NCBI GenBank assembly: GCA_014871385.1
Contig: CM026423.1
Location: 9,594,572 to 9,658,571, forward strand
DNA length: 64,000 bases
Origin: Ceratodon purpureus
Taxonomy: Eukaryota > Streptophyta > Bryopsida > Pseudoditrichales > Ditrichaceae
Direction: 5' to 3'
Numbering within the stretch: the first letter of the stretch is position 1; each line of letters begins with the position of its first letter. The notes beneath the pieces were generated by a model. The model was not told the origin of the DNA, did not search any database, and saw only the letters and a program-made list of their open reading frames with translations. This document shows positions 26,701-64,000 of the stretch, one piece after another. Position numbers and translations under genes: made by a program.

Positions 26701-27574
26701 CTAGCAGTGGAAAGAGTACCTTGATCCAGGCTTTGCTCAGGCTGGTGGAGCCTTCAGGTGGACGAATTTTGATTGACAATTTGGACATACAGCTGATAGG
26801 CGTGAAGGATCTGCGCACCAAGTTTGGAGTCATTTCCCATGAGCCAACATTGTTTGAAGGCACTGTCCGTACCAACATAGACCCCCTTCAAGAGCATTCA
26901 GACCGAGAAATTTGGGAAGCCCTCCAGATATGCCAGTTGGCTGGAACGATCAAGGACAAAAACGGCAAGCTCGACTCTTTAGGTGAGACAGACGCATTTG
27001 CTGAACTCTCATTCAGATTTTTATACGGGTTTAACTTATTTAATTTTTGTTGATCACCGTTTGTGGTAAAAGTTTTTAATGAGGGTACTTGATTCTGCTA
27101 GTGGTTGATGTAGGCGAAAACTGGAGTGTGGGTCAAAGACAGCTCTTCTCCATGGGTCGTGCACTGCTGAAGAAGGCCAAAATATTAATTTACGATGAAA
27201 CAACTGCATCCGTGGACACAAGAACTGATGCCATCATTCAGAAAATCATTCGCTCGGAGTTTGCAAAGTCGACTGTCATTAGTATTGCCCACCGCATCCC
27301 CACAGTCATGGATAGTGACAAAGTCTTAGTCCTAGACTCTGGTGAGTTTTCTTCCGGCATTGCCTGTATTTCATAGTCAATTTTCGCATTTTGAAGCAAT
27401 TCTCGATTTCTGTTCGAATTCCAGATCACCCAAATGTATCCTCCTGATTTATCATCTGTCTGTGCAGGGCTTGTAAAAGAGTTTGATGTACCCTCGCGGC
27501 TGTTAGAGCAGCCTGGCTCTCTTTTTGCATCATTGGTTCGAGAGTATTCAGAGCGTTCAGACCCCGATGAGTAG
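20783..27574 (+). CDS. ABCC-type (MRP) ABC transporter, full length
   Basis: An ATP-driven exporter of the multidrug-resistance-associated class, typically vacuolar and moving glutathione or other conjugates; the substrate is unknown here. Twelve exons: 20783-22351, 22543-23079, 23321-23641, 23966-24052, 24163-24416, 24668-25118, 25279-25443, 25699-25993, 26231-26445, 26613-26982, 27114-27341 and 27468-27574. All phases agree, giving 1532 residues, the normal family size. Order: N-terminal TMD0, TMD1, NBD1, TMD2, NBD2. NBD1 has Walker [12 protein letters not shown], signature [14 protein letters not shown] and H-loop [12 protein letters not shown]2 has Walker [12 protein letters not shown], signature [16 protein letters not shown], Walker [13 protein letters not shown] and H-loop SIAHRIPT. 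In NBD1 the Walker B reads [15 protein letters not shown], where plant ABCCs usually have LLDDPFSAVD. The start follows a plausible leader-intron acceptor. Confidence 0.95.
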
Positions 27575-29357: not shown

Positions 29358-32300
29358 ATGGAGAGTGATGTTTGGTCTCCTAGGAGATTGCACCTGGGAG
29401 AAGATATGGACAATTCAAATACTGGTGAGCATTTTCTTTATATCCTTTCTTATTTCCCAGTATTCATTACAGTATTCAGGTGTCAAATGTTGGTAGCAAT
29501 CCTGACCCTTTTCATTCCTATTTTGAGCTATTCTAGAGCCTGGTGAGCTAGAAGAAATAGGGAACAGAGAAGAAAAATGTCTGGTTTGGTACCAATGTGT
29601 AGAAACTTTTGAATGTGATAGCAAATGCTACTCGATCTACTAACCAATCTAATCACCCATATATACTTTGCTGTGCAGATAAGTATGCAAAGTATGATGT
29701 TTTTATAAGCCATAGAGGTCCTGATACGAAGACAGGGTTTGTGAGCTTTCTACACAAGGACCTAGTTGCAGCTGGACTGAGGCCATTCTTGGATTGCAAA
29801 TCAATTGATGTTGGTGATGACTGTTGGGAAAATATAGAGCATGCCATCAAGAAGACTCCAATAGCTGTGGTTGTTTTTTCAGAGAGATTTACACAATCTG
29901 AGTGGTGTCTCAGAGAGTTGCATCTGATATTGCACACACCTTCAGTCCAGATGCTACCAGTCTTCTACAACTTGCGACCAAGTGAAGTGAGGTTTCCTGA
30001 AAGTGGCCAATTAAAAGATGGATTTGAAAAGTTGAGTAGCCGATATGAAAAAGATGTGATTGCAGAATGGAGAGCAGATCTTGTACAAGCCTCAAATGTT
30101 ATGGGATGGGAGCATTCACGTGCACATCCGAGGTAGACAAATTTGATCTGACCTAGACCATGTTCTTAAATCTTTTTTGGAAATGATATTGTGCATCATA
30201 GTTGGATTTCAATGTATTTTAACATATTTTATGTCATTTTGTTGTCAGATTGGAAGGGGACATAATAAGGGAGATTGTTGAAAAAGTATTTGAACTGGCC
30301 AACAAGCCACTCCCTTTGGATATAGGTGAACATGCCATTGGCGTGGAGAAAATAGCTCAAGAAATCATTGAGAAACTACACGGTGATGGAAGAATTTTGA
30401 TGTTGGGATTGTGGGGGATGGGCGGAATTGGAAAGTCAACTTTAGCAAGAACGTTGTATAATCGAATGAAGAAGAGCTATGTGGCCAATTGTTATATTGA
30501 AGATGTAACAGAGAAAGTGGCTCAAGGTGGTGTAGTGAAAGTTCAAAATTGTATCTTGAAGGACTTGTGTAAGAATGAGTCAATAGAAATTGAAGATAAA
30601 TCTAAGGGGAAGGTTATTCTAGAAGAACGGCTATGTGAGAAAAAAATCCTATTGGTCTTGGATGATGTTTGTGACAATGATGAGATGTATTACTGGATAT
30701 CCTCCAAGATGCTAAGACGTGGTAGCATGTGCATAGTCACATCTCGTAATCGTCGTATATTTGAGAAGGCATATTCATTTGACATGAATCATGAGGTATA
30801 TATTCACGATGTTCAAGGATTGAGCAGTATCAATTCTCAACGAGTATTTACATCTTATGCATTTGGAGGTGAGAAGAAAATGAAACAAGGATTTGAAAAG
30901 TTGGTGGTAAATGTCAGTGAGGCATGTAGAGGAGTTCCACTAGTACTCAAAGTTTGTGGAGCACTTTTGAAAGATGAAGAAGATGTAGACATCTGGAACG
31001 ATGTTCTCAAGAAGTTAAATTGTGGTACCATAATGGATGAAGATAAGATCTTTAAGTGTCTTCGGATAAGCTATGATATTCTTCAGCAAGATCATCAAGA
31101 GATGTTTTTGGATATAGCTTGTGCTTTACTTGGACAATCCAAAGACTTGGCTATACGACTTTGGAAATCTCATGGGTGGTCTGGTCCTTTAGGTGTTCGA
31201 AGCCTTGTAGAAAAGGCATTAGTGACACTTGACAAGCGTGGTTGTTTCGGTATGCATGACCACTTGAGAGACATGGGACGTGAAATTGTTAAGAAGGAAA
31301 GAATACATAACGGAGTCATAAGACGCTTATGGATGCCTGAGTCCTTGATATTACTAAAGAGAGATAAGGTATGTTCTCCAATCTATAGGCCAGCTTGTCC
31401 TCATATGTTTCTATCTTTAATAGCCTTTATTTTTAGTAATTTTGATAAAGATCTAGCTTTTTTATTTCTTATTTTAGTTTGCCTCATGTCTAACTCATAA
31501 GGAAATGAATGTGCAGCAATTACCTCAATCTCTTGAAACTTTGATCATATACGACAATTATATGTCTTATGGAAATCATAGGTCTCTTCTTGACCTTGAT
31601 GTTTCTTTCATGAGAAACCTGCGCATTTTCAGATGTGGTCATAATATAAATGTGCCTTCGTCATTTCCAGAGAACATGGGCTGGTTTGGTCGATTACCAC
31701 AACACATATCAGATGTAGGAAACTGTACTCTGCCAATAGTACCCCAAAACAACAAGTTGGTAATCATGAACTTGGAAGACTTTTATGCTGAATCCTTGGG
31801 TGAGTCTATCTGCAATGCAACTAACTTAGAAGTGCTGAATCTGAAATGTATTTGGACTCCACTTGCTCTATGGCACCTACCGGATTCGTTTGGAGGTCTC
31901 GAGAATCTACAAGACCTGGATCTCAGTGCCTCAGTTATTCAGATTCTGCCCGAGTCATTTGGAAAACTCAGCAAGTTGAAAGTGTTGAAGTTGCCAATTG
32001 ATCTCATCAGCTTACCACATTCTTTTGGGGGCCTAGTTAATCTAAGGCAATTGAATCTTGCAAATTTTGAGATTCAGAGTTTGCCGGAGTCATTTGGAGA
32101 GCTGAGAAGCCTGGAGGTCTTGAACTTGAGCAACTGTGACAAGCTCATTATGCTACCACAATCATTTGGGCGTCTAAGAAATCTAAGGAACTTAACATTG
32201 AAAGGTTCTTATGGGCTCCAGAGTTTGCCTAATTCCTTTGGAGAGCTGATCAACTTGGAAGTGTTGGATTTACCATGGAATCTTCTTAGCTTACCACAAT

Positions 32301-34703
32301 CTTTCGGTGGCCTCGTTAAACTAAGGCACTTGGATCTTGAAAAATTTTGGATTCAAAGTTTGCCCGAGTCATTTGGAAAGCTGAGTAGCATGGAAGTATT
32401 GAATCTGAGCAACTGTGACAAGCTCGTTATGCTTCCACATTCATTTGGGGGCATGAGAAACCTCAGGGACCTGACACTTAGAGGCACTGGAATTCAGAAT
32501 TTACCTGAGTCCTTTGGAGAGCTGATCAACTTGGAAGTGTTGGATTTGCCGAGGAGTCTCCTTAGCTTACCACATTCTTTCGGTGGCCTCGTTAAACTAA
32601 GGCACTTGGATCTTGAATACTCAGCGATTCAAAGTTTGCCAGAGTCCTTTGGAGAGATGAGCAGCTTGGAAGTACTGATTATGAGCAACTGTAACAAGCT
32701 CACTGTGCTGCCACATTCATTTGGGGGTTTAAGAAATCTAAGGGACTTGACCCTCAGAGGTTCTGGAATTCAAAGTTTGCCCGAGTCATTTGGAGAGCTG
32801 AGCACCTTGGAAGTGTTGAATTTGAGTTACTGTGCCAAACTCATCATACTACCCGATTCATTTGGAGGTCTGAGCAATCTCAGAGATTTGACACTAAAAC
32901 GCTCTCGAATCCAGAGGTTGCCCGAATCATTTGGAGAGTTGAGCAACTTAGAAGTCTTAAATTTGTGTTACTGTGACCACCTTGTGATGCTACCAGCTTC
33001 ACTTTGTAGTCTCACAAATTTATGGCAACTGGAAATTCGTGGTTCTGGAATCCAAATCCTTGGGAGATTTTAGCCGCTTTGGAGCGTTGGATGATTCTGG
33101 GGAAGTCAATATGCTTAAGAGTTTATTTGGGAATCTCGTAATTCAAAAGGTCCTGGATTTATCCTACTCTAGAATCCAAAGTCTGCCCGAGCAGCTACAA
33201 GAGCTGAGCAACCTGGAAATATTAAATTTAAGTTTCTGTGAGGAGCTTGCAATGTTGTCAGATTCATTTGGATGTTTCTGGAATTTGCGAGAGTTGAACC
33301 TGCAACATTCTGCAATCCAAAGTTTGCCAGAGTCGTTTGGAGAACTGAGCAACTTGGAAGTGTTGAACATGAGTTACTGTGACAAGCTATCCATGTTGTC
33401 AGATTCATTTGGAGGTCTGATCAACTTGAAAATGTTGAATTTGAGTTATTGTGAGAAACTCGTTGTGTTGTCGGGCTCATTTGGAGGTTTGAGAAATTTG
33501 CGGGTGTTGAACCTGCAACATTCTGGAATCCAAAGTTTGCCAGAGTCATTTGGAGAGCTAAGCAACTTGGAAATCCTGAACTTGAGAAACTGCGACAAAC
33601 TCTCTGAGTTACTGGATCCATTTGGGAGTCTGACAAATTTGTGGGACTTGACGCTTCAAGGTTCTGGAATTCATAGTTTGCCAGAGTCATTTGGAGAGCT
33701 CAGCAACTTGAAAGTGTTGAACTTGAGTTACTGTGACAAGCTCTCCGAGCTAACGGATTCATTTGGGAGTCTCACAAATTTGTGGGACTTGACGCTTCAA
33801 GGTGCTGGAATCCAGAGGTTGCCTATGTCGTTTGGTGAGCTGAGCAACTTGGAAGTATTGAATTTGAGTTACTGCGACAAACTCTCTGAGTTATCGGATT
33901 CATTTGGGAGTTTGACAAATTTGTGCGACTTAAAGCTTCAATGCTCTGGAATCCAAAAGCTGCCGGAGTCAATCGGAGAGTTGATCAGCTTGGAAGTTTT
34001 GAATCTGCCTGAGAACCTTACTTGGATACCACACTCATTTGGGGATCTGAGAAATCTAAGGAACTTGATACTGAGAGGTACTGGAATCCAGAGTTTGCCT
34101 TCAGAGTCCTTTGAAGAGCCGAGTAATTTGGAAGTATTGGATTTGCCAATTGATCTCATCAGCTTACCACATTCTTTTGGGAGCCTCATTAATCTAAGCC
34201 ACTTGGATCTTGCAAATTTTGGAATTCAAAGTTTGCCCGAGTCATTTGCGAAGCTGAGAAGCCTGGAGGTATTGAATCTGAGCAACTGTGACAAGCTCGT
34301 TATGCTTCCACATTCATTTGGGGGTATGAGAAACCTCAGGGACCTGACACTTAGAGGCACTGGAATTAAGAGTTTGCCCGAGTCCTTTGGAGAGCTGATC
34401 AACTTGGAAGTGTTGGATTTGCCGAGGAGTCTCCTTAGCTTACCACAATCTTTCGGTGGCCTCGTTAAACTAAGGCACTTGAATCTTGCATACTTTAGGA
34501 TTACAAGTCTGCCCGATTCTTTTGGAGAGCTGAGCAACTTACAAGAGTTGGATCTCCATTGGTGCTTGGACCTGAATGCTCTACCTCAGGCCTTTACACA
34601 GCTCAAGAATTTGCGGAAGTTAGATCTGCAGCATTGCCCTGCCATCTCAAGTTTTGAATCATTCCAACACCTCATGCCAGACGATTGTGAGGTCAACCTT
34701 TAG
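29358..34703 (+). CDS. TIR-NB-ARC-LRR immune receptor (TNL), with probable frameshift in the LRR exon
   Basis: An intracellular resistance-protein architecture. Exons: 29358-29424, 29679-30132, 30249-31368, then an LRR exon from 31517 to the stop at 34701. The TIR domain (about residues 23-170) begins YDVFISHRGPDTKTGFVSFL; a Glu in the SEWCLRELHLI segment fits the usual TIR catalytic position. NB-ARC: P-loop GMGGIGKSTLA, kinase-2 KILLVLDDVCD, RNBS-B MCIVTSRN, GLPL-like GVPLVLKVCGALL, MHD as GMHDHLRDMGREIV. The LRR part has about 38 repeats of 22-24 residues of the form LPESFGELSNLEVLNLSYC, often alternating LPESFG and LPHSFG types. At about 33054 one extra base moves the frame: the first part stops at 33073 while the repeats resume in the next frame and run to 34703. 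An intron there fits neither phase nor size. The gene is therefore either inactivated (truncated near residue 1065) or affected by a sequence error. Confidence 0.9.
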
Positions 34704-47970: not shown

Positions 47971-49827
47971 TGAACGATAATGATTTCCTAATTATTATAT
48001 CAGAGCAGACCGAAAAATGGAACGAGAGGGAAAGGAGCGTGCAGCAGCAAACCTGCTTTCCCTACGAATAAAAACCACACAACGCTTTGGATACAATTGC
48101 TGTCCATTTATTATATGAGTTTCATGCATGGTAAAGAGAAAAGTTATTATTCAAGTGTCACTGTGACTTTCAAGTTTCAGTTTACATTGGTTTATCTATG
48201 TGGCACATGAGATTCAACTCTAGATATCTGAAATTAAAACTAATGTTTTCTCGTGACACTCGTTGTTTGAGTGAAGTAAACACCCGCCTTAAAAGTCACA
48301 TGATGACGCTGAATTTGACAATGTAAACATTTATTTTGTGTCTTTTTCTTTAATAAAAATTTAGTATTTCCTTTCCCTTTCTAACTTGTACATTTACATA
48401 TTCATGATATTTGTATTATTAAAAAATACCATATTCTGTAGTATGAATTTTTTTATTTTTTATACTTGTTCTAAAAAAGTGAACATTTGATTGCGAAATT
48501 ACAAGTTCTTTGGAATGTAATTAATGGACGCAGATGACACATAATCACACAGTACCAACAAACTTTAATAATTAAAAAAAATTAAAAATAAAAAAAATTA
48601 AAAAGAAAAAAAAATTACGATTCAAAAGTAGATCAACCTATGAATAATGAAATCATCCTAAACGTGTTTTGCTGCAACTGATCGTACATCAAATGACATA
48701 TGAAATATTGCTGTTTACTCATATGTATCGTGAGGATTATGTTCTTGTGATTATTGAAATTTGTACCCACAAGTACTTTACTATTTACTTCTTAATATCA
48801 GAAAAATGAATTACTCAGTTCTAAAACTGTATCAGTCCTGTATACAAGACAGATACAATTACATTTACTAAGCAACTATTGATTTCAGGCTTCAATTTAA
48901 CGGTTTTTCTTATTAACATGAAATCGGACGTCACTAAAGTGCGAGCCTTGAGCGGTGAGCGGAGAGCGGTGAGCGGTAACTTTGCGGATATTTTGATGTA
49001 TTTGGGAATTTAGAGCGATATGGTTATGGTATTTTATGGATTAACAATTTTTTGGGTTTTGAAATTTCTAAATTTAGTTCGTAATGGGACCTATTACCGT
49101 GGACAGTCTCAGCAAAATTAATACTTGGCCTGATCTATGGCCGTGGAAATTATTGTATTACGGTTTTCGGGTGCGTTAGTGGCCTCCACTCGTGGATTCC
49201 TGTTATAGAGACTGGTCAGCCGGGTCTTTTTATAAGGACAGGCCGTGAGGTAACACTGTAGCGCTGAATTTCTCTTCAGTGTGTCGTGAGCCACGGAGGT
49301 AGGGGATGAACGTCAGCCAACAGCCACTGCCGATGATTCCAACCCAAGCAAGCGTCGAAAACTGGAGGACAATGAATTCTCACTTTGCGCACGAACAAAA
49401 AGATTAGACCATACATGTGCAACATATCATACAAAAGTATGCACGTTCTGCAAAGTACAACAGAACAAGTGGTAGGTTATCCCATTCATGGACCTATGAC
49501 AAAGGTGGGTCAGTAGTACACCTCCCCTTCAGTAAGAGTTCTCTCGGTTTAGGGAGTCTGGAAAAGGATTGTTCGGGCCTAGGCACACATATGTGACTTC
49601 CTCCCAGACCCTTTTACATGGACCTCTTCAGGAATTACACAGTTCTTTAAATGACTTGCAAAATGGTTCTTAACAGCGCTTAAGAAAAATAAGGGCGTGA
49701 TTCACAAGAATGGGAACAACGGTTTACAGTGCAAGTGCAAATTTGTGGTAGTGGCCCTTTTAGTCTCACTACTTCGTCATCCAGATGAATTCAGGCGATA
49801 CATGTGTGAATAACGAATCAGATATCA
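47971..49827. other. Spacer between the interrupted ORF and the transposase
   Basis: AT-rich to about 48900. A short GAGCGGTGAGCGG-type repeat lies near 48951-48979. The 49250-49650 part is more balanced and would include the 3' flank of the transposase gene. No ORF with coding character and no terminal inverted repeat was identified. Confidence 0.45.
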
Positions 49828-52800
49828 CTACTTCTCCAGGTGCTTCAAAAGGCCACTCTCTAGGACTCGCTTGACTTCGTTGAAGCTAAAACTAGCTGCA
49901 TGAATGAATGTATCCGACTCCGAATCAAGACCGCAAACTACACTGAGAAGGTAGTACAAATGCTTACAATTAGCCCATTGACCCCGCTTCCCAAGTGCCG
50001 TCATTGCCATCTCCTTGAAGTTTGGGCAAGTGCAGGCAGGGTGCTGCGAAATGGTCAGGTAGTATTGTTGTACCTTTGGAGGCTTCCCAGAATCCAATGT
50101 GACAATGCATCCCAGGGCTGGGGCAGGCAGCATGCAAAGCTTGCTGACCTTCGCGTTCAACGATAAGGCAGAGGCACAATTATTGCTATGCTTGGTCGAC
50201 GGGGCCTTCTTGTTCCGTCGGATGAGCTTCCCTGATCGCCGGGTAGGGAACTCATCCGGGTATGCCGGCGTAGGGTAGGCGGAGAGGTCCACTGCCGCGG
50301 CCCGGTCTTGGAAGAGTCTTCTTGGTGACATCTCCTTCAGTTGAGGGAGTCTGAAGCCGGCATTCTCTAGAGAGAGGATCTCTTTCTTCGTCAACTTCGT
50401 CCCAATCTTCACAGGCCACACCTCAGGTACCTTTGGCACCGATAGTACCCACTTCCGCTTGCTACCCTTGACGCACCTGTCAATGTCGTCATTGCAGAAA
50501 AAGAACTGATGAGTCTCTATTCTGTCCTTCTGGTAGTTCTTCATGGGGCCTGTGTATGTCGGCGCAGCCGTGCTCTTCCCGTGCTGCACAATTCGTGCCA
50601 CGCATTTCTTCTTAGTCACAGCGTGTTGGGCGAAGCAAGCCTTAGCGGACGTCTTAGGAAGTCGTGCAATGTGCCACTCGGAAGGGTTGCAGGCGGTCTC
50701 TTCAACTGAAGTGACGTGATGGTACTCGACTGGAGGTGGACAGTGCTCAGGGTGGAGGTCGGCTTCGTCCGCTTCAGTGCTTGTAGGAGAGTCTGCTATT
50801 ACCACCGTCGGAGGGTAGTCGCTCTCCAGACGTGCAGCTCTAGTCTGGACACGAGGTCTTGACACGGTGATCTTGTCTGGCCTATGAGACTCTCGTTCAT
50901 CTCCGAAGGCAACATCAGGTTTTCGTTTTAGTGAGACACAGACCTCCTCCCCTTCGAGATGCGGGTCCCTTGTGCACCAGTCGCCCGCTCCTGGCATGTT
51001 CATAATCGCTTCATGTAGGACCTTCGGGTTCCCTGTCCTCGCTGCAGATCTCTGTGCACGTCGGAGGCTGAGCTCTTCTTTTGACGGACCTTTCCCGGGA
51101 CGCTCCCCCTTCAAGAAGTGGAAGTAGGCAACGCATTGCATGAACGCCCTTACAAAGTCGTCGACAGCTGCAACGTACAAGTCGCTGCCCCGATCTCCAG
51201 ACTGCTGCTTCAACCTGTTGTGAATTGATTCAGCAAGATTGCACGACGGCATTTCCGCCAGCTCTTCCTCAGTGTGATTCTGCGCACATTAGGGGTTAGG
51301 TTAGGGTTTAGGGTCCAATTACTGACTGCGAAGCAAAAAGAGTGCCACCAGCAAGAGTCCTCGTCACCGAGGCCAATTGCCAAGCGCTGCAAGGCTGCTG
51401 CATTGGGCGCTAACTCAAGGCATGGAGCAACATGAAAGACCAGACTGAGTACCCCCAGCAAGAGTCCTCGGCACCGAGGCAAATTGCCAAGGGCTGCAAG
51501 GCTGCTGCATTGGGCGCTTAGTCAAGGCATGGAGCATCATGAAAGACCAGACTCAGTACCCCCAGCAAGAGTCCTCGGCACCGAGGCAAATTGCCAAGGG
51601 CTGCAAGGCTGCTGCATTGGGCGCTTAGTCAAGGCATGGAGCATCATGAAAGACCAGACTCAGTACCCCCAGCAAGAGTCCTCGGCACCGAGGCAAATTG
51701 CCAAGGGCTGCAAGGCTGCTGCATTTGGCGCTTAGTCAAGGCATGGAGCATCATGAAAGACCAGACTCAGTACCCCCAGCAAGAGTCCTCGGCACCGAGG
51801 CCAATAGCCAAGGGCTGCAAGGCTGCTGGATTCGGCGGTAGGTCATGCCTCGGAGGATCAGAAATGAGCAGATTCTGTACTCCCACCTGGAGTACTCGGC
51901 ACCGAGGGCTGAAAGGGTGCTGCACTAGACGCTAGGGCATCGGAAGGAGCATCACGAGAGAGCAGATTCTTTACCTTCACCAAGTTACCTAAGATGCGAT
52001 AGACACCTGAAAGGCCGAGAGATAGCTTACCAGTTCCATGAAGCCTCCCCACTGCCGATAGCGATGGTGCCAGAACGAGAGCCACGTCTCCATGTTGGAG
52101 AGCCCTTTTCCAGTTGCAGCGCCGGATGACATCCACCATGCTCGGATTGCCAAGAATTTTGTTTCAGCTTCGGCCAGTGTCGTCGCATTCTTGTACTGTT
52201 GGCAGAGTTTGATATGTTGTGCTCGGAGGTCCTGCCGAATGTTTGCGTTTGTATGTTGCTCCAAAGACTGCCTCCAATGGAATAGGCATGTCCTCTCCCT
52301 GTCAACCATCCTCTCGGAGGCGTTACCGCTCCCATAGATAATTCGAACTGCGTTCCAATTCGCTTGGGCACCGTCTGCCATGAAGCCCTTAAAGTTAACT
52401 CTCGCGACCCCGTGAGTCTCCATGATGGCATTCAAATTCTTCCACAGCACGGACTGGGCTGCCGTGTCCTCCGACTGCATGTCGCACGCAGCGATTGTCA
52501 TTATCTGACAGTAAGTTGGGTCGTAGACGTGGCAGGCCATCGTTACCCAGTCCCTTACTCGCCTCACGTGGTCAAACATGATCCACGCATCCTCCAAGTC
52601 ACCGCCTGTCTGCATACGCTTAACTAGATCGACTCCAGAACCCGGCCCTACCTCAGACATCTTGAAGACATACACCTTCGCCGCATCATCGCCTTGCCCC
52701 GGGAACATGTTATTCTGGATAAACTTCCAGTTGCTGAACCCCCGCAGCATTCTGATGCCATCCATAGTCCCAAAGCGCCTAACATTCTTGAACGACGTAA

Positions 52801-54145
52801 TGCAATTTCGGATGTTTGGAGAAGAGAGGTGCTTACAGCGGTCGAATATTGGTTCGAGCTCCTCCAATTCAAGAATCTTCTGCGGTTCACCTTCCTTGGC
52901 CAGAAGTAACGGGCCCAGCAGCTCCTTCGCAGTTTCGAGGACGATTGCGGAGGGTGTGGCGGAGGGAGTGCGCTCCACCTGCTCCCTGATCAAATTCTCC
53001 GTGTGTTCGACGAAGTCACGGTGCTCGCCAGACTTCACTGGATGATTGTGAGTTCCGAAGTGAACGCACGCTCTCGTCATGTGAGGTCCTGCAGTGACAT
53101 AGTAAATCTTTGCAGGACAAAGTGCAACGCAGGTAGGCGGCGTACTGCAAGATTTACAGACCACGGTGGAACTCTGCGGCGGCTTCGACCCAACTTCAAA
53201 CAGTTTCTCAGATTTCCCATCCCATTCAGTCTCGTTCACTACCGAAGTCCTATTATCACGTGTAAGATACTCACATTTGACATTGTCACAGCGCAGATGG
53301 CCAAGGCACGACGAAGAACGGAATGTCAGCTTGAGGTCGTTCTGAATATTCGAAGTCGCTGTTCGAGTCCAAGGGTGTCCGTCGTATTTCCTATCCATTC
53401 CCCGTAACTGTTTTGCGCCGGAGTGATGGCCGTGAGCACCTAGGGGTGGGAACTCAAAAATGACATCGCCATTGTACTGAGGAGGAAGGTACTCAACTTC
53501 CTGCATTCTAATTGCATCAAAATTGATGCGAGACAGAACACTCTTTGACCTTTTGCGAGCGCTAAGCTTCATGAGGCACTGGACGACACTGTTTGAAGGG
53601 GAGACTGCCGGGATAGACGGAGGGGAGACTGCAGGGGTACATGGAACGGATGACTTCAGGGAGGTTACTACTATTGCAGGAATCTCAACTGCAGTTGGCA
53701 ATGTCGTGTCCTTCACCTCAGGGAGTACTGTCGTCTCAAGTACGTTTTCACTATCAGAATCACTCAACTCAAAGATGGTTTGAAGTCCTGGCTCGGTCTT
53801 CACTTTCCTCAACGGCGGATCAGAATTGATGCAAACTGTTGTGGACGATCGGGGGGTAAGCAATTCAGTAGAAGCACCTAAGACAGACTCCGTAATTCCG
53901 TAGACTCTGTACTTCCCTGGTTTAAGCAACCAAAACGTCCCAAACTCCTTCTGGGTAGATAACTGACCCACTGCATGCGAGAGTTCGCCACTGATGTCGT
54001 CAAATATCTCCTCCTCTACATGAAGTGATTCCTCTCTGTACTGGAAGCGAAGACTCAGAGTGGTAGAACTGATCATAGCACACCCATCTACACCCAAAGG
54101 AAACGTAATCGGAACAGAATGCGAATCTGCACGAAGGTAAGCCAT
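49828..54145 (-). CDS. Mutator-like (MULE) transposase with GCM/WRKY-type and SWIM zinc motifs
   Basis: Predicted DDE transposase of 1188 residues from two exons, 52031-54145 and 49828-51279 (phase 0; GTAAG donor, GCGCAG acceptor). Residues 1-270 are unassigned and partly Ser/Thr/Pro-rich. A Cys/His cluster near 285-370 (LRCDNVKCEYLTR, then VCKSCSTPPTC, ending HFGTHNHPV) resembles the GCM/WRKY-like zinc-binding region that precedes many MULE cores. The core spans about 510-680: MFDHVRRVRDWV and YDPTYCQ, then GFMADGAQANWNAV (second Asp near 590), then CLFHW, the C..H motif typical of Mutator transposases. Near 1120-1145, CTCPNF...NCKH fits the CxC...CxH SWIM finger. A Ser/Pro-rich insert separates core and SWIM. 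The only intron is filled with a 107-bp tandem repeat. No internal stop or frameshift, so the gene may be active. Confidence 0.88.
51284..51315 (-). repeat. Telomere-like CCCTAAA tract at an intron 3' end
   Basis: Read on the minus strand, the last bases of the transposase intron are CCCTAAACCCTAACCTAACC and CCCTAAT, close to the plant telomere unit. The tract sits just upstream of the GCGCAG acceptor and may also serve as its pyrimidine-rich stretch. Confidence 0.75.
51340..51960 (-). repeat. Intronic 107-bp tandem repeat in the transposase gene
   Basis: Five recognisable units, starting near 51345, 51456, 51563, 51670 and 51777 with 107-bp spacing between the last four, plus a degenerate piece to about 51930. 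Read in the sense of the transposase, each unit contains GCAGCCCTTGGCA, GCCTCGGTGCCGAGGACT and GCTGGGGGTACTGAGTCTGG. The same motif order recurs in the plus-strand arrays at 56770-63060. The whole array lies within intron 51280-52030. Confidence 0.95.
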
Positions 54146-54542
54146 ACTGTGAACACGAAGAGCGAGATGTGAAAAAAGCAAACACGGCGGAGGAGATGAT
54201 CACAGAATATTACGTACCCTCCTCGCTGCGACATTCTTCTAAACTCACACAAGAGTACATGATTCAGGAGACGGTTAACATTAAGACGTATAGTTAGGAT
54301 AATTTCTGGAGCGAATAACCTTATATGAACTAATTAATCATGGATTAGTACAGGTCCAGAGAACATGCCCGCCCTAATATTCATTGTCATATAGGCTGGG
54401 ATATTACAGGCATGAGTGGAAGATGACGGCCACTTTTAGTACTAATAGATTTTTTATTACAATGAAACGATTTCATTACAGCAGAACCATTCCGATCACA
54501 TTCAGGTACACGTACTCCAAGGTCTTTAATCCCACTACTCTG
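54146..54542. other. Transposase upstream region
   Basis: A GTTCACAG acceptor-like sequence lies immediately before the transposase ATG, so an upstream non-coding exon is possible. No other feature is seen. Confidence 0.4.
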
Positions 54543-54998
54543 TTAAACTCGACGAATGTGTTTTCTGGATGGCTCCCTCGCATCGTACTCTTTGATACTG
54601 TCTTCAAGAAGCCCATGAGTGCTAATTGCAGTCCAGCAGCCTCTACTTTGGAGCTTACGTCCTTTCGGACGAGGGGTGCTTCTTAAAAGACATCTGGAGT
54701 AGGTCCCCGGTTTGATGTTTCCAACTTTGGCGTACGCATGGGCTGCACTAATAACGTCGCACACAGCCCGTTCTCCTTCTACCGTGGTTGCTGTGGCCGA
54801 TTGGACACAGCCCTCGGCGTCCACAATCATGACATGAACGGAAGCAACTTGGGTGGGTGGCTCCTTGGAGTCTGGCAAGCTGCAATCTGGAACTGGATCA
54901 AAGGGACCCTGAAAATCGTCTAAGGACACCTCATACTCTCCCACTACCTGTGAATCTAGAAGTATACGAGAAGGGGACATGAGCGGTTCTGCCTCCAT
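54543..54998 (-). CDS. Small ORF of 151 residues, possibly related to the transposase N-terminus
   Basis: An uninterrupted ATG-started frame, with no recognised family. Parts can be laid beside the transposase N-terminal region: VMIVDAEGCVQSATATTV beside PLGVDGCAMISSTTLSL, and NIKPGTYSRC beside LLKPGKYRVYG, in the same order. This suggests a shared domain or a diverged duplicate, but identity is low and judged by eye. It lies between the divergent transposase and DGNHR gene, on the transposase strand. It could be an independent accessory gene or an alternative first exon; no donor in the correct phase for the latter was found. Confidence 0.5.
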   Translation of the reverse strand: MEAEPLMSPSRILLDSQVVGEYEVSLDDFQGPFDPVPDCSLPDSKEPPTQVASVHVMIVDAEGCVQSATATTVEGERAVCDVISAAHAYAKVGNIKPGTYSRCLLRSTPRPKGRKLQSRGCWTAISTHGLLEDSIKEYDAREPSRKHIRRV

Positions 54999-55521
54999 CT
55001 CCAGTGAAGCCTCTACTAAGATTATCTCAGTGTGGAAATGCGTCTGGAAATGGAGGAGCCAGTGACATTTCTTATATAGGAGTACAATGAACGCAGCCTC
55101 GGCTCATGTTAAAACACGTGTCTAGGAGGGCTATATTAATGCAAAGAATGAATCAGGGACGGCGCAGTCTTCGCATGGTTGTTTACATGCAGTTAATACG
55201 TGACAGTATGAAAGGTGAACTAACTTGTGCTGCAGAACAAATGCTACGTCCTGGTGAGTAGATATTGGAATATTATCAGGTAACTAATTTCATGTATTCC
55301 ACGTACAGCCAACGGCGGCTCATTCATTAAGACAACTATTAGCGTCCAAATATCTTATGGAGGGCCCAAATGTCAGTGAGATCTATAAATCGAGGTCTAG
55401 CTCATAATGACACGCTTTAAGACATTTTAAAGAATCAACATATTATGGGGTTCATAGATCCCTCGTCAGCTATTTTTTCAAGCCATTACGTAATGCTTCG
55501 GATGGCCCATTAGAATCAGAG
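54999..55521. promoter_or_regulatory. Probable bidirectional promoter region
   Basis: About 520 bp between the minus-strand 151-residue ORF and the plus-strand DGNHR gene. By position it should hold both promoters. No TATA box or repeat array can be pinned with confidence. Confidence 0.35.
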
Positions 55522-58500
55522 ATGATCACACGGTCTGCTTCGAAGGCGCAGGCAGAGTTATCCAGGTCTGTACAGAAACGGAGGCGTCTTCGGAGGAAGA
55601 GGAGGTTAGCGGCCCCGGAGGTCACTGAATCCCCGTACAATTTGCGTTCAGCGATGGGGAAGAAGGGAGGGAATTCTAGTCAGGCCGTCGGAGGACAAAC
55701 TAGACGGCCTGGCGCTTCGATTGGACGAGACGATGTTTCACCGCGAACTCTGAACTATGTGGAAGAGGACGGAACGCCCATCCAGAATCCTCGCAGTAAG
55801 GTATGCTCTAATTCAATGGGAACCATGCATACGCTTGTCAACTTCGTTCTCTGGTAGACAATAAAAATCACTGTCCTCATGAGTATGGGTTACTTCAGAG
55901 TTGTCAAGTACATAGTCATCGAGTAGGCTGTAGTTTAGGAATTCAGGGTTTAGTGCGGGACGTTTCCTGCGGACGAAAAGGCCTATTACTCATGTGATTA
56001 AAATGGTGATAGATTGAACGATGTTTGAGCCGTATGAATTCATTTTTTCCGTTCTCGTCATATTATTTACGTACTGAGAAATTGCAAAGAGCGAATCATT
56101 AATAATAGTTCGTTGGCGGTAATATCGGGGTCGGCACCGACTGAGGCAAGTTCTCGTTGCAATAGCCTAGGGGGCTGGTTCAGACCGCAGCATATACGAG
56201 GGACGGGTCTAGGTTAAGAGAGAGGGGGCGCATGCAGCCTCGCAACGACATCCTACGTAGTATTCTGCGTTCCTTGTGATTTTGGTGTCCCTGCTGTTGG
56301 TCTTCCATTCCCCTGCACTGCAGACCTCATTGAGCATTTAGTTATTACTACAGCTCCTGGAGCAGATCGAAGTCGAGGACGACATGGAGGAAGAATCAGT
56401 CGACCGGAGTATGCGAGCACCAGTAAAGCTGAAGCCCAGCAACCATATTCAGGTGACGACTTCATATGTTATTATGTTCTGCATTATATACGTCTTCCTT
56501 TAGCTTGTTGATGCCATCTATTTCGAGTACTTGGAGCTTCTGGTTAGTACAGCATTAGGTCTCGCGAGGATACCTAATATCCAGGGTTTTCTGAGAGAAT
56601 ACAAATTTCGATGTCGCAGCCTCAAACCGGTGCGGGAAGCAGTACCAGCGACAGCGGTGGTCCTTTCATCGCGACCAGAGGAGGCAACGTCATGATCGCA
56701 GCACCCTCAAACAATCAGGTATGAGCTAATGCTTGGGCTCCAACTCCGATCAGCTCCTGTCGTAATATCACTCCATTCTACAGCCCTTTCAAGCAGCGTC
56801 GTAGCCCACGGCATAATGCCTCGGTTTAGGGTACACCCGCTGCGGCTCCCAGTCTGGTGGTTTTATGTTGATTTGTAAGTTGTATTGTGTGCCAATCTCG
56901 CATCCCCGCAGCCCTCGGCATACTGCCTCGGTGCCCAGGACTTGTGCCGGAGGCTCCAACTCTAGGCTTCTTCTGTTGATTTGTAAGTTGCATTGTGTGC
57001 CCCTTGAGCAGCCTCGCAGCCCTTGGCATCAAGCCTCCGTGCCGAGGACTTATGCTGGGGGCTCCTGCTCTGGTCTTATTAGGTTGATTTGTAAGTTGCA
57101 TTGTGTGCCCCCCTAGCAGCCTCGCAGCCCTTGGCATGAAGCCTCGGTGCCGAGGACTTATGCTGGGGCTCCAGTTTTGGTCTTGTTATGTTGATTTGTA
57201 AGTTGCATTGTGTGCCCCTTGAGCAGCGTCGCAGCCCTTGGCATCAAGCCTCGGTGCCGAGGACTTATGCTGGGGGCTCCTGCTCTGGTCTTGTAATGTT
57301 GATTTGTAAGTTGCATTGTGTGCCCCTTGAGCAGCCTCGCAGCCCTTGGCATGAAGCCTCGGTGCCGAGGACTTATGCTGGGGGCTCCAATTTTGGTCCT
57401 TTTTTGTTCATTTTAAAGTTGCATTGTGTGCCCCTCTAGCAGCCTCGCAGCCCTTGGCATGAAGCCTCGGTGCCGAGGACTTATGCTGGGGGCTCCTGCT
57501 CTGGTCTTGTTATGTTGATTTGTAAGTTGCATTGAGTGCCCCTCTGGCAGCCTCGCAGCCCTTGGCATAATGCCTCGGTGCCGAGGACTCCCGCTGGGGG
57601 CTCCAATTTTGGTCTTGTTATGTTGATTTGTAAGTTGCATTGTGTGCCCCTTGAGCAGCCTCGCAGCCCTTGGCATCAAGCCTCGGTGCCGAGGACTTAT
57701 GCTGGGGGCTCCAATTTTGGTCTTGTTATGTTGATTTGTAAGTTGCATTGTGTGCCCCTTGAGCAGCCTCGCAGCCCTTGGCATCAAGCCTCGGTGCCGA
57801 GGACATATACTGGGGGCTTCAATTTTGGTCCATTTATGATGTATTCTAAGTTGCATTGTGTGCCCCCCTAGCAGCCTCGCAGCCCTTCGCTTCATGCCTC
57901 GGTGCCGAGGACTAACGCTGGGGGCTCCAATTTTGGTCTTTTTCTGTAAATTTTTAAGTTGCATTCTGTGCCCCTCTAGCAGCCTCGCAGCCCTTGGCAT
58001 CAAGCCTCGGTGCCGAGGACTTATGCTGGGGGCTCCAGCTCTGGTCCTTTTATGATGTATTCTGAGTTGCATTGTGTGCCCATTGAGCAGCCTCGCAGCC
58101 CTTGGCATGAAGCCTCGGTGCCGAGGACTTATGCTGGGGGCTCCAGCTCTGGTCCTTTTATGATGTATTCTGAGTTGCATTGTGTGCCCCTTGAGCAGCC
58201 TCGCAGCCCTTGGCTTCATGCCTCGGTGCCGAGGACTTATGCTGGGGGCTCCTGCTCTGGTCTTGTTATGTTGATTTGTAAGTTGCATTGAGTGCCCCTC
58301 TGGCAGCCTCGCAGCCCTTGGCATAATGCCTCGGTGCCGAGGACTCCCGCTGGGGGCTCCAATTTTGGTCTTGTTATGTTGATTTGTAAGTTGCATTGTG
58401 TGCCCCTTGAGCAGCCTCGCAGCCCTTGGCATCAAGCCTCGGTGCCGAGGACTTATGCTGGGGGCTCCAATTTTGGTCTTGTTATGTTGATTTGTAAGTT

Positions 58501-61500
58501 GCATTGTGTGCCCCTTGAGCAGCCTCGCAGCCCTTGGCATCAAGCCTCGGTGCCGAGGACATATACTGGGGGCTTCAATTTTGGTCCATTTATGATGTAT
58601 TCTAAGTTGCATTGTGTGCCCCCCTAGCAGCCTCGCAGCCCTTCGCTTCATGCCTCGGTGCCGAGGACTAACGCTGGGGGCTCCAATTTTGGTCCTTTTT
58701 TGTTCATTTTAAAGTTGCATACTGTGCCCCTCTAGCAGCCTCGCAGCCCTTGGCATCAAGCCTCGGTGCCGAGGACTTATGCTGGGGGCTCCAGCTCTGG
58801 TCCTTTTATGATGTATTCTGAGTTGCATTGTGTGCCCCCCTAGCAGCCTCGCAGCCCTTGGCATGAAGCCTCGGTGCCGAGGACTTATGCTGGGGGCTCC
58901 AGCTCTGGTCCTTTTTTGTTCATTTTAAAGTTGCATACTGTGCCCCTCTAGCAGCCTCGCAGACCTTGGCATCAAGCCTCGGTGCCGAGGACTTATGTTG
59001 GGGGCTCCAGCTCTGGTCCTTTTATGATGCATTATGAGTTGCATTGTGTGCCCCTCGAGCAGCCTCGCAGCCCTTGGCTTCATGCCTCGGTGCCGAGGAC
59101 TTATGCTGGGGGCTCCAATTTTGGTCCTCTTTTGTTCATTTTGAAGTTGCATTGTGTGCCCCTTCAGCAGCCTCGCAGCCCTTGGCTTCATGCCTCGGTG
59201 CCGAGGACTTATGCTGGGGGCTCCAATTCTGGACCATTTATGATGTATTCTGAGTTGCATTGTGTGCCCTCCAAGCAGCCTCGCAGCCCTTGGCTTCATG
59301 CCTCGGTGCCGAGGACTTATGCTGGGGGCTCCAATTTTGGTCCTTTTATGGTTATTTTAAAGTTGCAATGTGTGCCCCTCGAGCAGCCTCGCAGCCCTTG
59401 GCTTCATGCCTCGGTGCCGAGGACTTATGCTGGGGGCTCCAATTTTGGTCCTTTTATGATGTATTCTGAGTTGCATTGTGTGCCCCTTAAGCAGCCTCGC
59501 AGCCCTTGGCGTAATGCCTCGGTGCCGAGGACTCCCGCTGGGGCCTCCAGTTTTGGTCCTCTTATGTTCGTTTTAAAGTTGCATTGTGTCGATGGTCTCG
59601 ATCGTTTTAAAGTTGCATTGTGTACATGGTCTCCATTTTCCAGGCTGATGGCGGGATGGATGCTCCCCTGTTTGAAGAGGACACGCCAGGAAACACCGAA
59701 AAGGACGAGGACTCGGTTGATGATGACGACGCTTTCACTGGAGATCTAGACGAGATTCGATCTCGCCAGAAGCTTAACTCTGTCACTACTATTTCGAGTC
59801 TGAGAGTGAAGCCTTTTGCTTATTCACGTATAGACATTCCTCTGTGCAGAATGCAGCCAATGCCTATTGTGCGCCCGATGATGCAGTGCGACCTGTCGAA
59901 ACTGGAAGAGGAGTTCTCGCACGGGTACCGGGAGGGGGCATCTGTGTTTTACGTGTCAATTACAGATGAAGGAGGTAGGACTAGGGAAGTTTCGGCTGCT
60001 GATAAGGCCAGATGGGGCCCTATCTGGAACAAGAAGAACGATCAGTTTAATGATTTCTTGCTATCGATCCCGGAGCTTGCAGGATATGCAGATCTAATGT
60101 TCTTTGTTTGTGACGGTAATCATCGTTGTCAAGCATGGTTAAACCATATTCAGCGCCTACACAAGGGCGATGAATCGTGGCATTACCTTGTGGACTCTAT
60201 CCTTCTGGACACAAAGGGTAGAATCGGGTTAGTCATGCAGGTCATGCACAACATCAACAAGTAAGTTTCCTAAAGTCTCAATCGTGGTTATCTTTCCATT
60301 ATTACGATTCCTTCTGTATTTCATGTTAGTACATTAAATCTGGTTCTGTTGTACCTGTGCCAGGCATACCGAGGACAGTCATGTGAAGACGAACGATGTT
60401 CACACCCTTTTCAGAGTTCAAAAGTACGGCCTCATGCCCTTCGAGCAATTTAAGGAGCTGTTGTCCCCCTCGGATGTAAAGAGATGCAGGAAAACTAAGC
60501 ACGGAACGTGGTACACATTACCTGTGAATGTATTCACTAGTTTCATTTACCAGGTACACCATGAGATTCAACATCTCTAATTGTTTTATAAATTTCCCTC
60601 CGTATGTGCTCTTTGATGCAACCTCGGAGCCCTTGGTTTAATGCCTCGGTGCCGACGAGCAATGCTGGGGGCTCCAACTCTGGTCACTGCATGTCGTTAT
60701 TACTCTCAGTGTTAGAGCCCTGTGAAGCAGCCTCGCAGCCCTTGGTTTAATGCCTCGGTGCCGACGAGCAATGCTGGGGGCTCCAACTGTGGTCACTGCA
60801 TGTCGTTATTACTCTCAGTGTTAGAGCCCTGTGAAGCAGCCTCGCAGCCCTTGGCTTAATGCCTCGGTGCCGACGAGCAATGCTGGGGGCTCCAACTGTG
60901 GTCACAGCATGTCGTTTTTACTCTCAGTGTTAGAGCCCTGTGAAGCAGCCTCGCATCCCATGGCCTAATGCCTCGGTGCGGAGGACGTATGCTGGGGGCA
61001 TCAACTCTGCTCAGTGCATGTCTTCTGTCTTCTCAGTACTCGAGCCCTTTGAAGCAACCTCGCAGCCCTTGGCTTAATGCCTCGGTGCCGAGGTCAAATG
61101 CTCGGGGCTCCAATGCTGGTCACTGCATGTATGTCGTTTCCTCAGTTCTAGAGCCCTTGGCTTCATGCCTGGCAGCACTTGCCATAATGCGTTGTTGCCG
61201 AGGACTAATGCTTGGGGCACCACCTCTGATTACTGCATTCCGTTTTTTTGGTGAGTATTGTCGAATCCCCACTTCTCGCTATGATTCGTTCTATCATAAT
61301 TTGACAAGTTTCTCGCTTGGTGCAGCATGAGATCAGCAGAGCAGCAGACGAGGGGCTACGTGCTTACCTCGAGAATGCCGAGGGTGACGTCGCCGAGAAA
61401 GATAAAGCAGCTGCAATGAAGTTGGCGGCTGCAAAGAAGACCGAGAACTTGATAAAGAAAATGAACAAGTTAACAGCGGTCGCTAACCCGGACCTAACAC

Positions 61501-64000
61501 CCGGTTTCTTGAAAGAGGTATTGTTTCCATTTCTCCGGAGTACCATACATTATGCTCCACCGATCTATCGAATAAGAACACCACTGATTATGCCATACTG
61601 ATCTTGGTTCGGGGTCTGCCAATTCAGATTGAGCGGCACTACTCGTTGAACGGCTCCACGGGCGCCGAGTTGAATCTTGAAAAGCTGCAATCGATAGCAA
61701 CGGCGAAGGCTTCTTCAACCGCCAAGATCAGATGGCTCGAGTTACTCAACTCCTCTATAGCCACAAGAGAGGCCCGGTGCCTACCACCTAAACCATGCAA
61801 CGAGCAGAGGCTCACCCATTGGCTGGGAAGGGCATGCTTCTGGGCAGCAGTGAGTCATATCTCTCCACTACACTGTAATGCTATGCTGTATTTCTGTTTC
61901 GATCCTATTGTTAACTTCTGCGTACTTAATTAAATTACGTATGCCTGGTCGATCTTTCAGTTGAGTGAGGAAGCATCCACTTCTCTGGACGACATTCTCC
62001 GCTCGGACCGACCTCCAATCAACATGAACGTCTCAACAGAGCCCATGGGTTTGGAGACCTACGTAGAGGATTGCAGAATGAAGCTATTTGACCATGCCTT
62101 CTTCTCGTACTTCAAAGGTACTGACGCCTTCACCAAGTCAACCGACTTCAAGGATTTCAAGGGGTCCGACTTAGTGGTTCGAAGAGTCCTTTACAGGTAA
62201 TTCTCTTATCTTCACTTAGTTTACTATGAGCATCCTCTTGAAGCAACCTCGCAGCCCTTGGCATAATGCCTCGGTGCCGAGGACAGTTGCTGAGGGCTCC
62301 AGCTCTGGTCAGTGCATGTAGTTCTTCATGTTTATTCTAGAGCCCTGTGAAGCAACCTCGCAGCCCCTGGCATAATGCCTCGGTGCCGAGGGCTCCTGCT
62401 GAGGGCTCCAACTGTGATGAGTGCATCATGTTCTTCTTGCTGCTCTGGGGCCCACTGAAGCAACCTCGCAGCCCTTGGCATAATGCCTCGGTGCCGAGGA
62501 CAGTTGCTGAGGGCTCCAGCTCTGGTCAGTGCATGTAGTTCTTCATGTTTATTCTAGAGCCCTGTGAAGCAACCTCGCAGCCCCTGGCATAATGCCTCGG
62601 TGCCGAGGGCTTCTGCTGAGGGCTCCAACTGTGATGAGTGCATCATGTTCGTCTTGCTGCTCTGGAGCCCATTGAAGCAACCTCGCAGCCCTTGGCATAA
62701 TGCCTCGGTGCCGAGGACCGTTGCTGAGGGCTCCAGCTCTGGTCAGTGCATGCAGTTCTTCATGTTTGTTCTAGAGCCCTGTGAAGCAACCTCGCAGCCC
62801 CTGGCAAAATGCCTCGGTGCCGAGGGCTCCTGCTGAGGGCTCCAACCGTGATGACTGCATAATGTTTTTCTTGCTGCTCTGGGGCCCATTGAAGCAACCT
62901 CGCAGCCCTTGGCATAATGCCTCGGTGCCGAGGACCCATGCTCAGGGCACCAGCTCAGTGCATGTAGTTCTTCTTGTTTGTTCTAGAGCGCTTTCTAGCT
63001 ACCTCGCTGCCCTAGGTACAATGCCTCGGTGCCAATGACTACTGCTGGTTCAGGCTGTAACTTACTGGTCGTACGTAATGCAGGTACTTCAAGTACGAGC
63101 TACTGGCGAAAGGGGCAATCTTAAAGGATGATCTTCCGATATTTCTTCAGGCTTGGGTTGATCGCTCCAGTCCCAGTTGCATGTTTTCTGCTGCTCAGCA
63201 ACGAACCTGGACCACATCGCATCTTAGCGGCGGTGCGTGGTACCTAGATTGCCTATCCAGCTTCACCCCATCGTTTGAAGTTGAGCTCAGGAAGTCGAGA
63301 GACTCCGTAGGTGAATCTGGGGCTGAGATGCAAGATCTTCTCGGGATCGAAGACGAGGCAGAGAGAGCAAAGGCCTTGAAGCGCCGCGTTGAGGAGGATC
63401 GCAGGAAGGCACAGAAGATCAAGGAGGCCGAGGAGAAGGCGCTTCAGAGGGAGGAGGAGAAGCAGCAGAAGGCCGCGGAGAAGAGTTCGAAGAAAGGCAA
63501 GAGGAAAGTGAAGTCCCCCGGCGGGGATGTTGTGAAAAGTCCTATAAGCAATTCGGGATCACAGGCACCTCCGAACTCAAGGGGCACAAAGCGCAATGTG
63601 GACTCTACGTACGAGGAAGCTCTCACTCAGGTCCCTAACATTAATGTAGGTGACGAGGAGGGGAGCAACAACCGCGAGCTCATCATCAATTCCTCACTGA
63701 AGGATGTCCTGGCGGGGTCCTCTAATAACTTCACCCAAGCCTACCTCGACATCAAGAGCTTCCTGCTCAAGGTACTTTCTAATGTGCAATCGATTTCATC
63801 CAGGATACTGTAACCGTGCGCATGAAAATGTGGCCACGGGGTGCTATTTCGTTGTAGTCGTAAGTTAGAGTGATTTTGGCTTTGACTCCTTATTGAGGAG
63901 TACTTTGCTTGATATTGTGCAGCAGTCGGAAGGGAGATCCCTGCGCTTCAGGGGCGAGCCGAGGGTGCATCCGTTTGTTGACCTCATCATTGCGGACATT
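55522..64000 (+). CDS. Multi-exon protein with ParB/sulfiredoxin-like DGNHR motif (3' end beyond window)
   Basis: Exons: 55522-55800, 56354-56452, 56620-56718, 59644-60260, 60364-60553, 61326-61517, 61628-61849, 61961-62196, 63084-63771 and 63923 onward. All phases agree, giving 900 residues in the window. The N-terminus is basic (KRRRLRRKRRLAAPE), a likely nuclear signal. Residues 200-330 read as a ParB N-terminal-like domain: a PLCRMQPMPIVRPM strand, a helix with LSKLEEEFSHGYREGASVF, then FFVCDGNHRCQAWLNH (DGNHR at 316-320), matching the DGxHR nucleotide-binding motif of ParB/Srx folds. The C-terminal part near 770-830 is a long charged helix (EEDRRKAQKIKEAEEKALQR). Biochemical role unknown; nucleotide or DNA binding is inference. 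Three introns hold the 107-109-bp repeat arrays. It is divergent from the MULE transposase. Confidence 0.8.
56770..59600 (+). repeat. Intronic 108-bp tandem repeat array, about 26 units
   Basis: It fills most of intron 56719-59643 of the DGNHR gene. Units start near 57033, 57141, 57248, 57356 and 57464 (spacing 107-108). Each contains GCAGCCTCGCAGCCCTTGGC, GCCTCGGTGCCGAGGACTTA, TGCTGGGGGCTCC, a variable GGTC-T-rich part and TTGCATTGTGTGCCCC. A block at about 57490-57920 recurs almost exactly 756 bp later, indicating duplication of seven units. Long ORFs on both strands arise only because 108 is a multiple of three. Confidence 0.97.
60620..61240 (+). repeat. Intronic 109-bp tandem repeat array, about six units
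   Basis: It lies in intron 60554-61325 of the DGNHR gene. Units are spaced 109 bp (core starts near 60643, 60752, 60861, 60970 and 61079). The core is GCCTCGGTGCCGACGAGCAA, with the second palindrome arm altered, then TGCTGGGGGCTCCAACT and GGTCACTGCATGTCG. The last units are degenerate. Same motif order as the larger array but a distinct subtype. Confidence 0.95.
62236..63060 (+). repeat. Intronic 108-109-bp tandem repeat array, about eight units
   Basis: It lies in intron 62197-63083 of the DGNHR gene. Units alternate between two forms, one with GCCGAGGACAGTTGCTGAGG and one with GCCGAGGGCTCCTGCTGAGG, so the effective period is a 217-bp dimer. Core starts are near 62268, 62377 and 62485. Same GCAGCCC..GGCATAATGCCTCGG layout and sense orientation as the other arrays. 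Confidence 0.95.

Follow-up and report, generated by a model that had tools for sequence, protein, structure and literature searches.

Sense-oriented tandem arrays in the introns of a large DNA transposon family of the moss Ceratodon purpureus, with a possible likeness to VANDAL/VANC target arrays

Introner elements are intronic sequences of a mobile type that lie in a uniform orientation to the host gene, and subterminal repeats that bind the transposase occur in CACTA/En-Spm and other plant transposons. Closest to the case described here are the VANDAL transposons of Arabidopsis, in which the targets of VANC consist of a short motif that is repeated in tandem in the introns of VANB and VANC and upstream of VANA, with families differing in both motif types and repeat units (PMC5735166). 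No title in the open-licence literature that we searched named such arrays in a moss element.

The locus analyzed here lies in a window of 64,000 nucleotides of the C. purpureus genome (contig CM026423.1); the numbering is that of the window and is continued past its end where needed. It resembles the VANDAL system (PMC5735166, PMC10398659) in being a DNA transposon that encodes further genes along with a transposase, in having a repeat number that differs between copies, and in having related families with motif variants and different units. Here too, motif and unit change between families and copy number changes between copies. The differences concern the host, the motif (CCGAG(C/G)A or CCGATCA here, against YAGTATTAY or AGTTGTCC in VANDALs), and the units, which here are 107 to 171 bp long, partly palindromic, and in sense orientation in their tandem arrays. 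Furthermore, one gene of the element, gene D, has a DNA methylase match and no VANC-type domain, as neither gene D nor a third ORF matched DUF1985 or DUF287 (Pfam, E ≤ 1). We do not claim that the element is a VANDAL, because no VANC domain was found in it and its transposase matches no MULE profile. With CACTA/En-Spm elements it shares a short motif repeated in noncoding DNA of the element, partly by the 3' end of the transposase, but in the families compared most copies are in mid-element introns, away from the left end.

The region that drew attention forms the leftmost 15 kb of a large DNA transposon. The left end of the element lies at 48926..48939 (GGACGTCACTAAAG, no strand assigned) and is followed by TGAGCGG repeats. 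In a comparison of five near-identical copies, among them that of the window, and of a 90% relative, the flanks outside 48926 differ. The gene order is a minus-strand transposase, a divergent plus-strand DGNHR gene (gene D), and the third ORF on the minus strand. All introns were predicted from the sequence by a splice-site model, which gave the transposase two minus-strand exons, exon 1 at 52031..54145 and exon 2 at 49828..51279, the latter with a CxC...CxH zinc finger noted by eye, which we take to be SWIM-like. We searched the 362-Mb assembly (151 contigs, one of 110.5 Mb) and scored 61 genome copies of exon 1 among 2,759 first-look candidates; 27 of the 61 are full length at 97 to 100% identity, and 25 of these 27 are free of stops. 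Neither exon matched a Pfam family at E ≤ 10, MULE superfamily profiles included, exon 2 matched no NCBIfam family at E ≤ 1, and no useful PDB sequence match was obtained for the transposase. The name transposase is a putative one, given for the copy number and for the SWIM-like finger seen by eye.

No right end was found in the copies compared, and the window copy is disrupted on its right side. Two inverted, TGAGCGG-rich repeats at 48940-49011 and 68566-68639 are 95% identical and lie 19.6 kb apart. They were rejected as terminal repeats, since other copies continue past 67471, and, judging from those copies, the repeat at 68566-68639 is not the element's own end. The third ORF has no Pfam match at E ≤ 1. 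The window copy has it only up to 67471, where it is cut short, and one other copy has it without interruption; in the copy on C4 (16467-17147 of the oriented locus) it has 226 codons on the minus strand. Among the neighbors recognized by eye were minus-strand ORFs resembling a CACTA-type transposon, adjoining the element at locus L011 (757-5829), and, at 20681-34703 of the window, an ABC-transporter gene and a TIR/NBS/LRR-type resistance gene with 141-bp leucine-rich repeats.

Gene D (55522..66657, plus strand, contained in the window up to 64000) is predicted to have 13 exons with consensus splice sites and a stop-free frame that is intact across all of them, coding for 1,261 amino acids. 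Its sole Pfam match at E ≤ 1 is to PF01555 (N6_N4 DNA methylase; E = 8.4e-7, above the curated cut-off), and this covers only 56 residues (1053-1108) at the end of the profile. The DGNHR exon matched no NCBIfam family at E ≤ 1, and the DGNHR part is presumably akin to ParB/DGQHR proteins. To our knowledge, an N6_N4-type DNA methylase match is an unusual cargo for a plant DNA transposon.

A previous sequence-only reading of this DNA had noted four intronic arrays of a 107- to 109-bp unit, each reading with its host transcript. Tandem Repeats Finder and the splice-site model confirmed all four, and a profile of the unit, from which strands and unit matches were taken, placed them, together with a fifth array, on the strand of the host gene. 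The transposase intron T (51280..52030, minus strand) holds an array at 51341-51907 (107 bp, 5.3 times) with 7 sense unit matches, about 5 of them full units. In gene D, all on the plus strand and in sense orientation, intron D1 (56719..59643) has 27 unit matches in an array at 56861-59589 (108 bp, 25.3 times) that fills nearly the whole span between the splice sites, intron D2 (60554..61325) has 6 in an array at 60614-61238 (109 bp, 5.7 times), and intron D3 (62197..63083) has 8 of 109 bp in an array at 62239-63047 (109/217 bp). The fifth array, with 12 unit matches, is in intron D4 (64271-65664, plus strand), past the window end. The units of D3 and D4 both alternate between the same two subtypes, so these arrays look copied between introns of one gene.

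Outside the five introns, the profile found only degenerate units in 48901-67480 (E < 0.2). They lie past the DGNHR stop on its 3' side, at 66779-67142, and read antisense to DGNHR; an overlapping plus-strand match there (E = 0.024) is the palindrome read on the opposite strand. There was no match at E ≤ 0.01 in 1-48000 or in 68701-78000. The absence of arrays from spacers, as first proposed, thus holds within the window but not for the whole element. In the C4 copy, right-end units flank the third ORF on both sides, on its own strand. Right-end units are also adjoined by a sequence, GGTTCGAATCC, which by eye resembles a tRNA B box. The idea that the orientation results from a left/right symmetry of the element is weakened by the right-end units, since in the right half these lie on the minus strand.

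Introns of the sister family with 87% transposase identity are at the same positions and do not contain the window unit. Its transposase intron is about 100 bp long (by subtraction) and has no units, and those at the positions of D2 to D4 are about 300 to 430 bp long and also without the window unit, while its intron between exons 6 and 7 has about 1,360 bp compared to 110 in the window copy. In the 90% relative, arrays are already present in T and D1; the 20 kb compared contain no exon after a partial exon 4. Since the 87% sister has the same introns without the unit, we infer that the introns are older than the arrays, which grew inside them. An element-specific process of intron birth and growth had been suggested, of which the growth is retained and the birth is rejected. 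Relatives lacking the intron and splice sites supplied by the element, as expected of Introner elements, were not found, the sister having introns at the same positions; the repeats here differ from Introners in that they sit as tandem arrays inside older introns, and no intron gain was seen.

We compared 12 copies of the element, namely, the window's, ten near-identical ones, and the 90% relative. Searched with the unit profile, and after removal of every weak opposite-strand match overlapped by a better one (the echo of a palindrome), these copies gave 834 unit matches, of which 757 are on the strand of gene D (69 of them from a copy without placeable exons, with 2,674 N) and 61 are sense in the transposase intron. 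The other 16, at the right end, read antisense to gene D but share the strand of the third ORF. Both transposase-intron and DGNHR arrays are present in 8 of the ten other near-identical copies; one has no transposase-intron match, its left part being missing, and one has no placeable exons. The D1 array has 27 to 59 units across the ten placed copies. These copies are descendants of one element, and independent events are few.

An exact pattern of the unit core has 1,738 matches in the whole genome, its reversed control has 0, and the 100 matches listed are all on contig C1, in three clusters. Among the 40 best places of the right-end unit, 31 have a D1 array or a listed transposase no more than 45 kb away and 9 do not, one of these 9 (C1, 22.49 Mb) falling in an exact-core cluster. 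A dispersed host repeat is not supported, given that the listed core matches are clustered (100/100) and that 31/40 of the best right-end unit places are linked to the element. At C5:3818938-3827188, five copies of the right-end unit follow each other at an exact spacing of 2,026 bp, which looks like a higher-order tandem repetition of one part of the element.

Comparison of the families (a single copy of the 90% family [F90], a single copy of the 87% family, and 2.5 kb from a third family, in about 0.3 Mb of genome sequence) showed different units with a related short motif. Window units of 107 to 109 bp contain CCGAGGA, while the sisters contain CCGAGCA or CCGATCA, in units of 65/129 bp in the 87% sister, whose D1 region holds this different array, and of 171 bp in the third family. 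With the 129-bp array deliberately left out, CCGAGCA/TGCTCGG is the top 7-mer in 7,545 bp of noncoding DNA of the 87% sister, occurring 22 times compared to 0.61 expected and to a maximum of 12 for any 7-mer in 200 order-2 Markov resamples, although some of the 22 copies lie inside a segment of about 550 bp that is present twice (by eye), so they are not all independent. It occurs twice in 7,260 bp of coding DNA, and in the intron outside its array there are 2 sense and 7 antisense copies of the 7-base motif. In the window copy, CCGAG(C/G)A on either strand was found 41 times in the 6,729 bp of array introns, 5 times in 7,353 bp of coding DNA, and once, compared to 0.66 expected and thus without enrichment, in 4,463 bp of other noncoding DNA. 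The motif is concentrated in noncoding DNA in both families with placeable exons.

The third family, also at 87% transposase identity, has an array of 171 bp repeated 12.9 times, with CCGATCA present 24 times in 2.5 kb (both strands together), other 7-mers of this array being nearly as frequent (18), and no CCGAG in these 2.5 kb. We call CCGATCA a variant of the CCGAG motif because the GACTTG context is shared. The array is probably intronic, judging from its distance to the transposase, with no exon inside its 2.5 kb. CCGATCA alone is found at 12:12 on the two strands, and its 13-mer at 10:0.

Orientation was also tallied for two extended motifs of 13 bases. CCGAGCASACTTG occurs 494 times genome-wide (5 for reversed controls), and of 100 places listed, 58 are beside a listed transposase, with 52 on the strand of gene D and 6 against it, 5 of the 6 being at palindromic dyads, GCTCGGNNCCGAGC; the other 42 have no listed transposase, 61 copies being scored per search. 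CCGATCAGACTTG occurs 157 times (4 for reversed controls), and of 100 places listed, 71 could be placed beside a listed transposase, all in sense (71:0) and in six elements, with 29 unplaced. Thus, among placed sites, the sense bias of the extended motif reaches two sister groups with different units. The dyad GCTCGGNNCCGAGC has 155 sites (30 for the control). Of 50 listed, 30 fall between −12 and +4 kb relative to a listed transposase (0.27 expected) and belong to 11 elements; 18 of these 30 are downstream of exon 1 of the transposase, and for the remaining 20 of the 50 no element is listed. The 87% sister (L034, 1593-1773) carries a 53-bp tandem array at its transposase 3' end, and at C3:22889921-22890464, downstream of another transposase copy, dyads GCTCGGTCCCGAGC follow at a spacing of 53 or 106 bp. 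In alignments between units of different families, the score of the F90 T unit with the 87% unit was reached by 3 of 500 shuffles, and those of other pairs were reached by 10 to 60 of 500. The arrays of different families may therefore have a remote common ancestor on the same strand, and as they are weakly alignable, the shared motif could be a remnant of this common ancestry.

The explanation that we tentatively prefer, with a confidence just short of even, is that the arrays belong to this large DNA transposon family and work like VANDAL/VANC target arrays, as candidate binding sites. Tandem repeats filled pre-existing introns, with units that differ between sisters and arrays that carry CCGAG(C/G)A or CCGATCA. 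This motif would be the putative binding site of a sequence-specific factor, for which the element itself is the most likely source, the candidate reader being the DGNHR/DNA-methylase protein of gene D. Occupation of the sites along the introns would hold the chromatin of the element open or regulate its genes. Tandem duplication would be the route by which the sites multiply, with introns used as a noncoding space inside the element that tolerates growth, and the sense bias would come from inheritance plus copying from intron to intron in one direction, or from an added function in the nascent RNA. Support comes from the noncoding concentration of the motif in the window copy and the 87% sister, the CCGATCA array of the third family, the excess of the 13-mers and of the dyad over their controls, the dyads placed near listed transposases, the lower variation of the arms within the units, and the close similarity of the VANC precedent. 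Against this explanation, a double-stranded site should be indifferent to the strand, but the extended motif has its tandem arrays in sense; a CCGAG-type site does not require the conserved outer arms of the window unit (AGCCCTTGGCA...TGCTGGGGGCT); and the motif of the window family is confined to arrays, in which tandem copies are not independent. A more specific form, in which a VANDAL-like self-recognition evolved independently, an element-encoded ParB-like/DNA-methylase protein reads the motif arrays in the introns of the element's genes, its own gene included, and marks or protects the element, and protein and arrays diverge together between families by tandem duplication, is in our view rather unlikely.

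A serious rival, even if we consider it unlikely, is that the unit acts in the pre-mRNA, where a hairpin would aid the splicing of long introns, mask cryptic sites, or bind a splicing regulator. The sense orientation of the tandem arrays in the window family and the 90% relative, and that of the extended motif beside the listed sister transposases, with five of its six antisense exceptions at dyads, are both in its favor, and so is the structure of the unit. The five unit types have a core in common and differ in the remainder; in the example at 57231..57278 (plus strand), the conserved 48 nt are GCAGCCCTTGGC-N5-GCCTCGGTGCCGAGG-N5-TGCTGGGGGCT, with CTCGGNNCCGAG in the middle. This core can fold into an outer stem, AGCCCUUGGCA/UGCUGGGGGCU, with three G.U pairs that are possible on the sense strand only, and an inner stem, CCUCG/CGAGG. 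In the arrays of five classes, variation is about 3 to 13 times lower in the paired arms than in the unpaired joints (pi of arms/joints, 0.021/0.092, 0.042/0.169, 0.111/0.311, 0.016/0.098, and 0.007/0.088; permutation P from 0.04 to 0.00015 by class and 1e-5 jointly), using the 734 of 834 units with at least 95 nt, without the F90 and right-end classes; as the arms were defined from the same units, this variation describes the fold rather than proves it. A 58-nt core folds better than shuffles (z of −2.9 and −2.0), and of 123 distinct cores, 98 gave the better fold on the sense strand, gapped cores being excluded and no right-end core remaining.

The folding is less convincing for whole units, only one of which reached a z of −3.65, three of four having a z between −0.7 and −1.3, and the antisense strand folds better in 2 of 7 unit classes (sense better in only 5/17 and 1/3). 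The 129-bp unit of the 87% sister has no significant fold, which weakens the RNA hairpin as the sole conserved feature, and the 7-base motif is present on both strands in the sister intron and in the third-family array. Avoidance of cryptic splice sites is contradicted by D1, which has 11 GTAAGT donors in sense and none in antisense, the opposite of what avoidance of mis-splicing would produce. We also rejected a known structured RNA or a tRNA-derived repeat, as no Rfam match was obtained in 48900-64000 at E ≤ 1 and no tRNA was detected by a scan of four loci.

A further rival, which we judge to be about as improbable, is a neutral minisatellite that originated once in an intron, was spread from intron to intron by recombination or by gap repair following transposition, and expanded freely owing to the tolerance of introns and transposons, its bias being due to descent and chance. 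It would fit the variable unit number of D1 between copies with nearly identical transposase exons and the alternating subtypes shared by D3 and D4, and the weak, same-strand alignment of the arrays of different families means that one ancient origin could explain the orientation of D1. However, the arms and the motif are more constant than the remainder of the units, both within and between arrays, and the sister motif is also over-represented outside the tandem array, in several noncoding places and not in coding DNA. Moreover, the transposase intron is on the other strand, and plain copying within one gene does not place its array. Last, a hairpin or dyad that drives its own amplification by stalling replication or repair, so that palindromic units are duplicated preferentially, its conservation reflecting selection at the level of the unit without benefit to the element, would agree with the palindromic core, the conserved arms and variable joints, and the array length differing between copies, but is very improbable, as the main motif of the sister units is a half-site without palindrome and the 100 listed exact core matches are in three clusters and not dispersed.

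The strand bias is the least explained part. It had been put forward from the sequence as a sign of a function in the transcript, and while the bias itself is real, the weight that it can carry for such a function is limited, because the copies descend from one element and the arrays look copied between introns, with 7-mers on both strands. A binding site at the DNA level seems at least as likely as an RNA function, because the families share a short motif and not an RNA fold.

If the arrays are indeed target arrays of this kind, self-recognition by motif arrays would not be peculiar to the VANDALs of Arabidopsis and would be a recurrent answer of transposons to host silencing. It would also explain the very long introns of the transposon genes, and the candidate protein, with its DNA-methylase match, would be a new kind of player. 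As several families with different units and motif variants are present in a single genome, the co-evolution of protein and target would be directly testable in this moss.
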